Part shown: positions 48,095-54,091 of the stretch, one piece after another | Numbering within the stretch: position 1 is the first letter of the stretch | Layout of the letters: the number at the start of each line of letters is the position of its first letter | Assembly (NCBI GenBank): GCA_018004935.1 | Contig: JAGNBF010000005.1 | Span: 1-64,000 of the forward strand | Source of the DNA: Chloroflexota bacterium | GTDB taxonomy: Bacteria; Chloroflexota; Anaerolineae; Promineifilales; Promineifilaceae | DNA length: 64,000 nucleotides | Reading direction: 5' to 3' | Notes under the pieces: model-generated | Seen by the model: only the letters and a program-made list of their open reading frames with translations | Told to the model about the DNA's origin: nothing | The model's database searches: none | Made by a program: the position numbers and the translations under genes

Positions 48095-48967
48095 CTAACG
48101 CTCCGGATAAATCCGTACCCGGCGGCGATCCCCAGTACCCGTACTTTGAGTATACACCCCTTTAAAATTACGCAAGGCCATATGAATGGCCCGGCGTTCA
48201 TGGGGGGGCATGGGTTCAAGAGTTACCGGGCGGCGCTGTTTAGTCACTTTACGAGCCATTCGCTCCGCCAGGCGAGCCAGAGCCTCTTTGCGCCGTAGCC
48301 GATACGATTCCACATCCAGGGTAAAAGTGGCTTTGCGTTGCAGTTTATGGCTTACCATCAGGCGAGCTATAAACTGAATGGAATCCAGAGTTTCCCCCCG
48401 TTGTCCAATCAACATCCCCAGATCATTGCCCGTCAGGTTAACCATGTTAATCTGCCGCCCCGTCATATCATCCGGCTCAGAAACAGTCACCTGGATGTCG
48501 GCAATAATACTGAGGTAGTTGAGAATGGTTTGCACCACCTCTGTAACCGCGGCCGCTTCTGCGGCCAATTCAGCTTCAGAGAGAGGTCCCTGTTCTTCAA
48601 CCTCTTCCTCACTTTCTTCATGTTCTACGACTGTAGGTTTGGGTTTGGGAGTAGGAGTAGGAGTAAGTGGGGGGGGAGGCGCGGCCGCGACTGGGGGTTT
48701 TACCGGAGCCGTCACCACCGGGGCAGGTCGAGCTGGGGGTTCAACGGGGGACAAACGGGTAGGTGCAACTTCAGGCACAACCGCTGTAGCCGTTAGCCGC
48801 ACCAGTGCGGGGCGTCCACCCAGGCCAAACAGCCCCCGACTGCCCTCATCTAAAATGTCAATTGCTACTTCATCACGATTCAGCCCCATTTCCGCCAGCC
48901 CTTTGGCAATGGCTGAATCCACATCTGTACCTTTCATTTCGATGGTTCGTTTGCTGGTCATATTCAT
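48095..48967 (-). CDS. khpB: Jag/KhpB RNA-binding protein
   Basis: 290 residues. N-terminal Jag_N domain (EMKGTDVDSAIAKGLAEMGL, GLFGLGGRPALVRL), a Pro/Ala/Glu-rich linker of about 90 residues (PTPTPKPKPTVVEHEESEEE), a KH domain with GMLIGQRGETLD, and an R3H domain (MPPHERRAIHMALRNF). KhpB pairs with KhpA to bind RNA and affects cell elongation in Firmicutes; this role is known from relatives, not shown here. It is last in rpmH-rnpA-yidD-PQQ-yidC-jag, 105 bp after yidC. The linker is longer than usual, and two GCGGCCGC sites fall in it. Confidence 0.93.
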   Translation of the reverse strand: MNMTSKRTIEMKGTDVDSAIAKGLAEMGLNRDEVAIDILDEGSRGLFGLGGRPALVRLTATAVVPEVAPTRLSPVEPPARPAPVVTAPVKPPVAAAPPPPLTPTPTPKPKPTVVEHEESEEEVEEQGPLSEAELAAEAAAVTEVVQTILNYLSIIADIQVTVSEPDDMTGRQINMVNLTGNDLGMLIGQRGETLDSIQFIARLMVSHKLQRKATFTLDVESYRLRRKEALARLAERMARKVTKQRRPVTLEPMPPHERRAIHMALRNFKGVYTQSTGTGDRRRVRIYPER

Positions 48968-49072: not shown

Positions 49073-49951
49073 TTACCGTTTACCGGTTTGTCCTTTCTTT
49101 TTGGCTTGTTGTTTACGTGTAGCTGTGCGCCCATTAGTTGAAGGCTGATTCTTGCTGGCTTCGACTTTTTTAGCTGGTTCTTCACCATCATCGGCAAAAA
49201 TAACTTGAGGTTTAGGACGGGATGCCGCTTCTTCTTTCAGGCGTTGCATATGCTGTCTGGTAATGTACCCCTGGCCAATACCGATCAGGTTGGAAACAAT
49301 GAAGTAAATGGATAGACCAGAGGGGAAACTCAAGGAAAACATGCCAAACATGAGGGGCATGGTGTAAAGCATGGAACGGGACATTGCGGCCGCGGGGTTT
49401 TCTTGCTCACCTTGCGCCGGGGCCGTCGGCGCGGGCATAGATAATTTCTGTTGCAGGTACATTCCCCCACCCACCAAAATGGGCAGAATATACCACGGAT
49501 CCGGCTGAGCCAGATTCAGCCACAAAAATTTATTGGCAATCGGTAATAATTTAGACAGGTCTACCAATCCGGTACGCAAAGAGAGTTCATACAAATCCAA
49601 AGGAGTTGAACCCAATGTATACTGAATCGCCCGATACATCCCGATAAGAATGGGGAACTGCACCAACGTAGGCAAACAACCCATCAAGGCATCAGCCGGG
49701 TTGTAACCAATCCGCGCAAATTCCTCTTGCATCTTCTGCGGGTTATCCCGATATTTTTTCTGAATCGCCTGAATTTGCGGTTGCATTTCCTGCGTTTGAA
49801 TCATAGAACGCTGTTGGCGCAGATTCAACGGCATCGTAATGAGGCGAATAATGATTGTAAAAACGGTGATCGCCAGGATGTAATTGTGTCCCAGGAATTG
49901 GTACAGAAGCAAGAGGCTTTCTGTCAAAAGGTTGTAGAATGCATCAAACAT
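49073..49951 (-). CDS. yidC: Membrane protein insertase YidC
   Basis: 292 residues, the short Gram-positive-like form without a large periplasmic domain. Five membrane helices; the conserved hydrophilic-groove arginine is R36 (TIIIRLITMPL). The cytosolic hairpin (QQRSMIQTQEMQPQIQAIQK) and CLPTLVQFPILIGMYRAIQY match the family. The tail is basic (AKKKGQTGKR), suited to ribosome contact. It inserts membrane proteins alone or with SecYEG. It lies 29 bp after the PQQ-propeller lipoprotein gene. Confidence 0.95.
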   Translation of the reverse strand: MFDAFYNLLTESLLLLYQFLGHNYILAITVFTIIIRLITMPLNLRQQRSMIQTQEMQPQIQAIQKKYRDNPQKMQEEFARIGYNPADALMGCLPTLVQFPILIGMYRAIQYTLGSTPLDLYELSLRTGLVDLSKLLPIANKFLWLNLAQPDPWYILPILVGGGMYLQQKLSMPAPTAPAQGEQENPAAAMSRSMLYTMPLMFGMFSLSFPSGLSIYFIVSNLIGIGQGYITRQHMQRLKEEAASRPKPQVIFADDGEEPAKKVEASKNQPSTNGRTATRKQQAKKKGQTGKR

Positions 49952-49980: not shown

Positions 49981-51150
49981 TTATTCTGCTGGGACATACT
50001 CCCAATTCAAATCACCATTTTCCTGATTATACACGTTTACCTGAAATTGGTTGTCGAAACGGGCACCGGTCTTTATGACAGCTACCAGATTATCCTGAAC
50101 CAAAACGGGTACGGTAAAAATAGGACCAGGGGTTGTTTTGCGCCATATTTCCGCACCATCTTCTTTATCCAAGGCGAGAATCTCTCCGGTCAACTCGTCC
50201 AGGTCGGTTGAATCACCAATGGTGGCGGCAAGGTAAAGACGTTCACCATTCACAACCGGGGTGGCTTGAATATGTTCAGTGACTTGTTGTTGCCATAATT
50301 CGGCTCCGGTCAGAGCATTTACGGCATAAACATTCCCTGCTCGATCCGCAAAGTAAAGGGACTCCCCTTCTAAAACGGGTGCGCCCCACAACCAATCTTT
50401 AGCCGGGAAACTCCATACCTCACTGCCATCCTCTAAACTGAGGGCATGGACATGGCTATCGAAACCGGCGACATAAATCAGGTCTGGGCCAACTGCCGGA
50501 GCGGAAGGAATCGCGGCCGCGAACTCATGTTGCCACAATTCTTCGCCACTATCAGCCGCAATAGCATACAGGTGTTTATCCAATGAAGTGAGATAAACCA
50601 CCCCATCCTGATAGGCTGGTTTACCCCAAATGGCATGTTCGGCGGCGAAACTCCACTGCACCGAGCCATCTTCTACATCCAACGCGTATAAAATCCCATC
50701 AGCCGTCCCAATGAAGGCTTGAGTTTCCGTCAACAAAGGGGGTGCCACAATACGGTCTCGCGCTACACCACTCACAGGGGGCCACAATTGATCGGGTGAT
50801 GATTCCTGCAAGTTTTCTAAACCGTAAATAGAAACGGTAATACTAGAGGAAAACGTGCCCCCAGACGCCCCAAAATCCCCCAAGATCATGCGATCTCCGG
50901 CAATAGCCGGGGAAGCAAAAAAGCCGGCACGACCGGCTTCTGGGGGGTATGTCCAGAGAAGTTCTTCGCTGGCAACATCCAGAGCATAAATGATGGGGCC
51001 AGCAGTAATATAGACGTTTTGATTATCAGTACTTAGACCCGGCCAGTTGTTGTTACCACCAACAGCCTGACCACAGGCGGCCAGAACCAGGGCCATAAGC
51101 AAGAATATAAAGAAAACAGACCGCATACGCGGCCGCGGTTGTGCGTACAA
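49981..51150 (-). CDS. PQQ/BamB-like beta-propeller lipoprotein in the yidC operon
   Basis: 389 residues. Signal VFFIFLLMALVLAACG gives a lipobox cysteine. The mature protein is a beta-propeller of PQQ-like blades (VYITAGPIIYALDVASEELLW, TADGILYALDVEDGSVQW, SLDKHLYAIAADSGEELW, AGFDSHVHALSLEDGSEVW, DRAGNVYAVNALTGAELW). Blades resemble BamB, so a scaffold or assembly role at the membrane is plausible. TTG at 51150 was chosen because GGAGG lies 7 bases upstream; an ATG ten codons earlier overlaps yidD by 17 bases, and an ATG at residue 9 is a further option. Insertion between yidD and yidC is unusual. Confidence 0.85.
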   Translation of the reverse strand: MYAQPRPRMRSVFFIFLLMALVLAACGQAVGGNNNWPGLSTDNQNVYITAGPIIYALDVASEELLWTYPPEAGRAGFFASPAIAGDRMILGDFGASGGTFSSSITVSIYGLENLQESSPDQLWPPVSGVARDRIVAPPLLTETQAFIGTADGILYALDVEDGSVQWSFAAEHAIWGKPAYQDGVVYLTSLDKHLYAIAADSGEELWQHEFAAAIPSAPAVGPDLIYVAGFDSHVHALSLEDGSEVWSFPAKDWLWGAPVLEGESLYFADRAGNVYAVNALTGAELWQQQVTEHIQATPVVNGERLYLAATIGDSTDLDELTGEILALDKEDGAEIWRKTTPGPIFTVPVLVQDNLVAVIKTGARFDNQFQVNVYNQENGDLNWEYVPAE

Positions 51151-51163
51151 CAAAGGACCTCCC

Positions 51164-51373
51164 TTAGGGAACAGGGTCATACCCCCCTGGATTAAATGGG
51201 TGACACCGGGAGATGCGCTTCACCGCCATCCAGCCCCCTTTCAGAAAACCATATTTGGCAATGGCTTCGTATCCGTAATGGGAACAGGTTGGCGTAAAGC
51301 GACAACTGGGGGGAAATAAAGGAGAAATAAACCGCTGATAAAAGCGAATAAGGAATAGGGCAATTTGTTTCAT
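51164..51373 (-). CDS. yidD: Membrane protein insertion efficiency factor YidD
   Basis: 69 residues, full length. Typical [30 protein letters not shown], and a closing [20 protein letters not shown] small amphipathic membrane-associated protein that helps YidC-dependent insertion. Its start overlaps the stop of rnpA by four bases (ATGA), so translation is coupled. Confidence 0.96.
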
Positions 51374-51738
51374 GGCCCACTTACACCTTTATCCGCCGTC
51401 GGCTGGAGGAGATGTGCCCGTTGGAGAAGTTGTACCGCGGCCGCAAAAACTTCTTCGTAATTGGCTTGTGCCGTTTTATCACGAGCCACGATCATACAAT
51501 CCCAACCTGGGGCAATCTGGTTCAGGCAATGGCGTGTGGCTTCCCGCAACAAGCGCTTGGCCCGATTACGTTGCACCGCTTTGCCCACACGGCGCCCGGC
51601 CACAAAAGCAAAGCGGGTCTGTTGTCGTTGGTTGGCCAGCACATAAAGTGTGGCCAGAGGGTGATGCCAATGTTTACCCTTCTGCCGCACGGCACTGATT
51701 TCTGCTGTATGCCGCAGACGATAAGGGGCTGGCAACAT
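51370..51738 (-). CDS. rnpA: Ribonuclease P protein component
   Basis: 122 residues. The RNR signature is [19 protein letters not shown], with [14 protein letters not shown] before it. It supports the RNase P RNA in cutting tRNA 5' leaders. It starts 20 bp after rpmH, the classical order, and overlaps yidD at its end. Confidence 0.96.
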
Positions 51739-51758: not shown

Positions 51759-51983
51759 TCAACCCTTACCACCAGTTGCTGATTTGACAGAGCGGTAAGC
51801 AGTGGCTTTGCTGGCCTTCCAGTTAATCCGTTTCACATGTTCATTCATGCTGACGGTGAGCTGGTGGCGGCCTTTAGCCCGGCGGGCTTTCAGAACATTA
51901 CGACCATCCTGGCTTTTCATACGGGCACGAAAACCATGTACCCGCATACGACGACGAATTTTTGGTTGATAAGTACGTTTCAT
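51759..51983 (-). CDS. rpmH: Ribosomal protein bL34 with C-terminal extension
   Basis: 74 residues. The first 44 ([20 protein letters not shown] ... KGRHQLTV) are a complete bL34. A further 30 residues ([20 protein letters not shown] and a tail [10 protein letters not shown]) follow, while most bL34 proteins end at 44-47. The extension is basic, consistent with rRNA contact. It heads the operon and has an attenuator-like leader. Confidence 0.95.
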
Positions 51984-51997
51984 CTCTCTGCATCTCC

Positions 51998-52021
51998 AAA
52001 AAAATAGGGCTTATCGCCCTA
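51998..52021 (-). terminator. Intrinsic terminator inside the rpmH leader (attenuator candidate)
   Basis: On the minus strand TAGGGC GATAA GCCCTA followed by seven T. It lies between the promoter at 52064-52092 and the rpmH start at 51983, so transcripts must pass it. Confidence 0.65.
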
Positions 52022-52038
52022 AGAGTTTGCCACAATCA

Positions 52039-52059
52039 TGCCTTTTTCCATAAAAGGCA
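52039..52059 (-). promoter_or_regulatory. Hairpin at the 5' end of the rpmH leader
   Basis: TGCCTTTTATGGAAAAAGGCA on the minus strand (stem of about 8 pairs), close to the predicted transcription start at about 52056. Confidence 0.5.
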
Positions 52060-52063
52060 GGGA

Positions 52064-52092
52064 ATTATACCTGAGGCGAGCAGGGGTAGCAA
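52064..52092 (-). promoter_or_regulatory. Promoter of the rpmH-rnpA-yidD-yidC-jag operon
   Basis: On the minus strand TTGCTA (52092..52087), 17 bases, TATAAT (52069..52064). Confidence 0.7.
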
Positions 52093-52459: not shown

Positions 52460-53050
52460 CTATTGACCAGCGATGGAATGCGGCCGCGATATGCCGTTGC
52501 CATAATACCCATGCGTGTGCGCCACAATACGCCGCTGTTGTTCAGTTTGCAACCGGTGGATGCGCCGTTGCAGATAAGGGGAGAAGTAACCAGCATAACG
52601 AGCCTGGAGATCAGGCAACATCCAATCATTGCCGGTGACGCGGCCGCGACAGTTCAGCTCACCACAGGCACAAGTAAACTCATCATAGGGCACACTATCA
52701 CTCATGGCATAATCAAAACAGACCTCTTCGCCAGGATAAATATCCCGCAGAGCCACCACCGAAATCTGTCCACTCAGCCCCGCATTGGGGTTACAAGAAT
52801 GGTTGATAAAATCCCCCCCTTCCGGCTCCGGGGTCAACAAAAAGGCATTTTCATCTACCTGAACCGCATATTGCCGTTCAGCGTGATCCACTTGCTGAAT
52901 CTCTTCCAGATTCATAATGACCCCACCCCAAACAATGAGTAAATCCCCAACAGGGATAAAGGTGCGGGCAAACAAACCATGACTGCCTTTTTGATCAAAG
53001 TTCCGGGCTTCGATTTTGGACGAAAGGTAATGGGTATGGGTTAATTTCAC
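52460..53050 (-). CDS. SET-domain protein 1
   Basis: 196 residues. SET core: SHGLFARTFIPVGDLLIVWG, the NHSC motif in GDFINHSCNPNAGL, GEEVCFDYAMSD, then a post-SET zinc cluster CACGELNCRG. These are the SAM-binding and active-site features of lysine methyltransferases. A C-terminal tail of about 45 residues carries YAGYFSPYLQRRIHRLQTEQ. The target is unknown; bacterial SET proteins may modify ribosomal or DNA-associated proteins. GCGGCCGC encodes part of CRGRV. A second SET gene lies 245 bp upstream on the same strand. Confidence 0.9.
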   Translation of the reverse strand: MKLTHTHYLSSKIEARNFDQKGSHGLFARTFIPVGDLLIVWGGVIMNLEEIQQVDHAERQYAVQVDENAFLLTPEPEGGDFINHSCNPNAGLSGQISVVALRDIYPGEEVCFDYAMSDSVPYDEFTCACGELNCRGRVTGNDWMLPDLQARYAGYFSPYLQRRIHRLQTEQQRRIVAHTHGYYGNGISRPHSIAGQ

Positions 53051-53294: not shown

Positions 53295-53855
53295 TTATGG
53301 CCTGGCCTCTAGCACCGGTCTGTGATGTCCATTTGTGTGTTCTTTTTGGTATTGCTGATGGATGCGTCGTTGCAGGTAAGGCGAAAAGTACCCGGCATAT
53401 CGCTTTTGCAGTTCTGGGCGTTGCCAATCATTACCACTAACGCGGCCGCGACAACTAGCCGTACCACAACCACAATCAAACTCATCGTAAGCCGAGCCAT
53501 CGCTCATGGCATAGTCAAAACAGATTTCCTCACCCGCCATAATGGCCCGTAAAGCGACCAACGACACATTACCCTGCAAACCCGCATTGGGCTGGCAGGA
53601 ATGGTTAATCATCTCCGCCGGATCGTCCGGGCGCAGTGGCACCTGAAATATGTCCTCTTCTACCTGGAGACTGTGCTGACGGGCATGGGGAGGAAGCTGG
53701 TGGAATTGCTCCCCGGTTAGCATATAGCCACCCCAAACAACGATGAGTTCCCCTTTTTTTAATGGCTCTTGGGCATAAATGCCATATCCCCCCTTATCTG
53801 GATGCTGGCGCATTTCCAGTTTAGGTGAGAGGTAATTGCCAGGTAATTCAGTCAT
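53295..53855 (-). CDS. SET-domain protein 2 (paralogue)
   Basis: 186 residues. Same layout: GGYGIYAQEPLKKGELIVVW, NHSCQPNAGL, GEEICFDYAMSD, post-SET CGCGTASCRGRVSGNDW, and the shared tail RYAGYFSPYLQRRIH. Clearly a duplicate of protein 1, yet diverged. Start at 53855 (MTELPGNYL) because AGGAG lies 8 bases upstream; the frame is open a further 37 codons. GCGGCCGC again falls in the CRGRV codons. Gap 53051-53294 between the two holds only the ribosome site of protein 1. Confidence 0.9.
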   Translation of the reverse strand: MTELPGNYLSPKLEMRQHPDKGGYGIYAQEPLKKGELIVVWGGYMLTGEQFHQLPPHARQHSLQVEEDIFQVPLRPDDPAEMINHSCQPNAGLQGNVSLVALRAIMAGEEICFDYAMSDGSAYDEFDCGCGTASCRGRVSGNDWQRPELQKRYAGYFSPYLQRRIHQQYQKEHTNGHHRPVLEARP

Positions 53856-54091
53856 CTGTATCACTCCTTGCTGGTTTGTGCGGCCGCGCCGTAAGCAAAC
53901 GTAACCAGAGGAACGTCCGTTGACGCGAATGGCTTGATTGTTGGGGCATCGGTTCATTGTCACCATATGAAATCCCCAGTAGATGATTTCCTTTTTCAGA
54001 CATACAACCTCTCCTTACTAAGGGCCGATAAACAGGGTTAGCGTGAGCCTTGCAACTCTCATCATCGGTTATTTCCCGGCACCAACCCAAT

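Follow-up and report, generated by a model that had tools for sequence, protein, structure and literature searches.

Bacterial ribosomal protein leaders of the L10, L20 and S10 type act by intrinsic termination. The rpmH gene (encoding bL34) heads a widespread operon together with RNase P protein and membrane-insertion genes, and to our knowledge its control has been little described. A general description of ribosomal protein leaders that act by intrinsic termination is available (PMC7247131), and the main text of that study, which reports 20 new leaders, names neither L34 nor rpmH. For streptococci, the passage of a further report dealing with the rpmH 5' UTR describes conserved sequence and structure and suggests regulation, with no function assigned there (PMC6431027). 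Beyond this remark, no description of an rpmH or L34 attenuator was found in the open-licence literature searched. The rpmH leader presented in the current work is a new, undescribed leader of a known kind, that of the predicted intrinsic-terminator attenuators.

The leader is located in the window (i.e. the whole stretch of 64,000 nucleotides analysed here), where rpmH opens an rpmH-rnpA-yidD operon that is followed by yidC and jag (gene order by Pfam: rpmH, rnpA, yidD, PQQ-type beta-propeller, yidC, jag; Table 1). The initial annotation had described a promoter, a 5' hairpin and an intrinsic terminator ahead of rpmH, and all of these elements were retrieved on the minus strand at the positions it had given. 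The rpmH ATG is at 51983 and the predicted transcript start is near 52058. The leader fold corresponds to a z of -2.5 against shuffled sequences, and promoter-like consensus matches in the region amount to two, with 2.1 expected; taken alone, the promoter consensus match is thus at background for the region and unremarkable.

Table 1. Elements of the rpmH leader and genes of the rpmH locus, with positions in the window
Feature	Position	Strand	Basis or remark
rpmH promoter, TTGCTA-17-TATAAT	52064..52092	-	sequence; site shared with relatives
5'-terminal hairpin GCCTTTTATGGAAAAAGGC, GCCTTTT-ATGGA-AAAAGGC, 19 nt, at predicted transcript start	52040..52058	-	sequence; relatives weakly enriched
Linker, 18 nt, 5' hairpin to terminator	52022..52039	-	sequence and length not conserved
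Predicted terminator stem-loop, TAGGGC-GATAA-GCCCTA, -9.5 kcal/mol	52005..52021	-	pairing and covariation in family
Terminator U-tract (T7)	51998..52004	-	nearly invariant in family
Shine-Dalgarno (SD) region GGAGATGCAGAGAG, adjoining U-tract	51984..51997	-	
GGAG (SD)	51994..51997	-	
rpmH, bL34, 74 aa (44-aa L34 domain and C-terminal extension)	51759..51983	-	PF00468, E 8.5e-22
rnpA, RNase P protein, in rpmH operon	51370..51738	-	PF00825
yidD, in rpmH operon	51164..51373	-	PF01809
Beta-propeller protein of PQQ/BamB type, gene flanked by yidD and yidC	49981..51180	-	PF13360/PF13570
yidC (60 kDa inner membrane protein)	49073..49951	-	PF02096
jag/khpB	48095..48967	-	PF14804, PF13083, PF01424

Two features of the surrounding genes were also observed. 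The C-terminal extension of bL34 past its 44-aa domain (51759-51849, minus strand) contains a 20-residue motif, and the length of the protein is 72-82 aa in all 50 family members, 57-58 aa in the sister family and 45 aa in many others. Directly upstream of the rpmH promoter, two similar SET-domain-type ORFs are present in tandem (52460-53050 and 53295-53966, minus strand), the SET domain being confirmed by Pfam in the first of the two only.

Conservation in relatives, on which the initial annotation had made its reading depend, was borne out by a comparison of 52 genomes of the same Chloroflexota family, 50 of which contain an rpmH match. A hairpin followed by a U-tract is located directly before the SD in 43 of these 50 genomes, and this standard element is found in at least one member of 19 of the 21 rpmH-bearing genera. 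The 6-bp stem is paired at 96% across 42 distinct family sequences, as compared to 17-62% in slid controls, and four of its six pairs display changes on both sides (e.g. C-G to A-U or U-A, and G-C to A-U). Most genera retain CAGGGC/GCCCTG as the stem sequence, variants such as AAGAGC, AAGGGC and CCAAGAG, among others, occur in some, and across the family the T7 is nearly invariant with a fixed spacing between stem and U-tract. Two further genomes carry a displaced hairpin and U-tract: in L019 the hairpin and T7 are kept approximately 150 nt upstream of the ATG with repeats in between, and in L022 a different hairpin with AT7 is located approximately 70 nt upstream, so that the predicted terminator persists in both without touching the SD. 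The L019 repeats comprise two copies of the palindromic GGGCGAT(T/C)TTGGAAAATCGC between terminator and rpmH start, as if inserted.

A strict terminator test (stem of 5 bp or more and a tail with six or more T among 7 nt, ending no more than 40 nt from the start codon) was passed by 40 of the 50 family rpmH genes and by 0.44% of dinucleotide shuffles. None of 80 rpmH genes in the remaining families of the class passed it, nor did any of 65 ORF starts in the window (minimum ORF length 120 aa; some of these ORFs are presumably not real genes). A covariance model of the element scored 35.6 bits at rpmH and 22.9 bits at the next site in the genome to which the window belongs, rpmH being its only strong match there, and the search of relatives proposed by the initial annotation returned the rpmH copies as top matches in each other family genome sampled; among the class genomes sampled, the highest scores likewise belonged to the rpmH copies of this family. 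Weaker pattern or covariance matches elsewhere were considered as further copies and rejected, those inspected being ordinary terminators or chance occurrences. The predicted terminator before rpmH is, by these measures, conserved with covariation in the family.

The layout around this element is also shared. Among the 47 relative leaders scored, TATAAT is present at the matching position in 43 and TTGACC in 31, and the whole leader measures 75-186 nt. The attenuator-like order proposed from the window (promoter, terminator, SD) is thus kept in relatives; the family comparison shows conservation of the predicted promoter, of the putative terminator and of their order, together with covariation of the stem. 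Since the standard family cases leave only 8-28 nt, SD included, between U-tract and ATG, there is no room for a promoter in this interval. The transcript start necessarily lies upstream of the terminator, as the initial annotation had assumed, which implies that every rpmH mRNA must read through the hairpin.

This requirement for read-through makes transcription attenuation of the rpmH-rnpA-yidD operon the simplest and best reading of the leader, to which we assign a probability of roughly two in three. RNA polymerase would start approximately 75 nt before rpmH and would generate first the 5'-terminal hairpin and then the intrinsic terminator, the U-tract of which abuts the SD. A fraction of the transcripts would stop at the terminator, yielding a leader RNA of approximately 60 nt, and rpmH would be carried only by the read-through transcripts. 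Polymerase is presumably stopped in vivo by the predicted terminator, and the extent of read-through would be set without a sequence-specific leader site, i.e. by elongation speed, pausing, Nus factors or as a fixed throttle. The 5'-end hairpin, which is weakly enriched in relatives (mean shuffle rank of 0.33 and KS p of 2e-4, without correction for relatedness), would most simply represent a protective 5'-end stem. No conserved antiterminator was found, so that the predicted attenuator may be regulated or may simply leak at a constant level: in relatives, the terminator arms match the upstream leader scarcely better than background (mean p of 0.37 for the 5' arm and 0.55 for the 3' arm), with a slight excess for the 5' arm (KS p 0.002, relatedness ignored).

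A more specific form of control, in which free bL34, or a different product of the operon such as RnpA, attaches to the leader or to the terminator hairpin and promotes termination when in excess, is suggested by the gene and the layout, both of which match known ribosomal protein attenuators. The retention of CAGGGC/GCCCTG in most genera, perhaps beyond what a terminator needs, and the C-terminal extension of bL34 throughout the family are compatible with such an autogenous leader. However, the stem is altered in the genera with variant sequences, and no conserved aptamer or protein-binding structure was found in the relatives' leaders upstream of the terminator, the stretch that follows the 5' hairpin having no shared sequence and a widely varying length. 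Furthermore, the organism's own 23S rRNA does not contain an AGGGC..GCCC hairpin, and simple mimicry of 23S rRNA by the terminator hairpin was rejected on this basis. Rfam returned no leader match at the gathering score and, under relaxed thresholds, weak matches far below their cut-offs, consistent with the initial annotation having recognised no known leader family. Its suggestion that the leader perhaps senses free bL34 or a protein resembling L20 finds no support, there being no conserved aptamer, antiterminator or simple 23S mimic. A terminator can evidently be strongly conserved in the absence of any ligand-binding aptamer. Autogenous control of this type is thus considered improbable, and the same low standing is given to the wider proposal that autoregulation by bL34 or RNase P protein, with the terminator hairpin as binding site, has evolved repeatedly in the class with different hairpins. 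A constant read-through, or one governed by general elongation factors, is preferred over a dedicated ribosomal protein sensor or aptamer.

The hairpin may also function on the finished mRNA by keeping the SD free, by providing a standby site with a U-rich S1 site or by protecting from RNases, its likeness to a terminator being secondary. The U-tract adjoins the SD in most relatives, and strong hairpins at the equivalent place occur without any U-tract in genus g22 and in the sister family. In five of six g22 genomes the standard element is replaced by an 11-14 bp GGTGGCGCGAT hairpin (GGTGGCGCGAT..ATCGCGCCACC, upstream of rpmH in L005, L012, L138, L139 and L142), whereas all four sister family genomes contain CAACAGGGCCG..CGGCTCTGTTG or close variants before the SD. 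The g22 pattern was found in three genomes, each with 1-4 copies of it, and was consequently rejected as a high-copy, abundant repeat. These cases indicate that a hairpin before the SD may act without termination, and it is mainly because of them that confidence in attenuation is held back. Against a role confined to the finished mRNA stand the near-invariant T7 at its fixed distance from the stem and the retention of hairpin and T7 away from the SD in L019 and L022. The SD is, in addition, neither masked nor opened consistently (median 0.47 unpaired), and SD sequestration was rejected accordingly. An mRNA-level role of this kind appears unlikely, to about the same degree as autogenous control.

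Considerably less probable is attenuation through a leader peptide, whereby translation of a short ORF would control the terminator. The window does contain an ORF that ends at the terminator stem (ATG-GAA-AAA-GGC-ATG-ATT-GTG-GCA-AAC-TCT-TAG), but an SD-preceded ATG or GTG ORF ending before rpmH is present in only six of 47 leaders. Some of these ORFs consist of only 1-4 codons, and the peptides are unrelated save for those of L002 and L016, a close pair with amino acid changes between them; a leader peptide is not conserved among the 47 leaders and is hence disfavoured. A chance hairpin, or a terminator of the upstream SET-domain gene, which is co-directional with rpmH, is refuted by the conservation data, since a promoter lies in between and conservation goes with rpmH across the family genera.

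Other families of the class were covered by an exploratory survey, for which the hairpin criterion was loosened after the outgroup sequences had been seen. A longer hairpin with a T-rich tail downstream of a TATAAT-type promoter was present in 16 of 80 rpmH upstream regions, distributed over nine families and unrelated in sequence, at a shuffle rate of 0.17%. For rpmB as control the count was one of 60 (Fisher p 0.001 versus rpmH, relatedness ignored), where leaders may be shorter and a promoter was seen in only 35 of the 60. Three families display a recurring GC-rich hairpin and U-tract of their own, i.e. f16 (L204, L216, L228), f33 (L220, L225, L273) and f23 (L233, L235, L238). These hairpins are unrelated to that of the window and are candidates for separate leader families.

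With respect to the rpmH leaders of f16, f18, f23, f33 and others, the window's leader shares with them a hairpin downstream of the rpmH promoter, whereas their sequences are unrelated and their terminator-like hairpins mostly lie 37-75 nt before the ATG, that of the window's family abutting the SD. A family-wide terminator between promoter and SD, together with unrelated ones in other families of the class, points to attenuation having arisen repeatedly as a solution for this operon in Chloroflexota, and the stop-signal-like hairpin that nearly all relatives keep would constitute a built-in brake on each rpmH message. The streptococcal case (PMC6431027) likewise concerns the 5' UTR of rpmH, but in a distant phylum and, in the passage concerned, with no mechanism or terminator stated. 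The L10-, L20- and S10-type leaders differ from the rpmH leader, which is without a conserved protein-binding aptamer or alternative fold. Common to both are the ribosomal protein operon and the order of promoter, leader, terminator and SD, an arrangement in which a conditional terminator would be expected.
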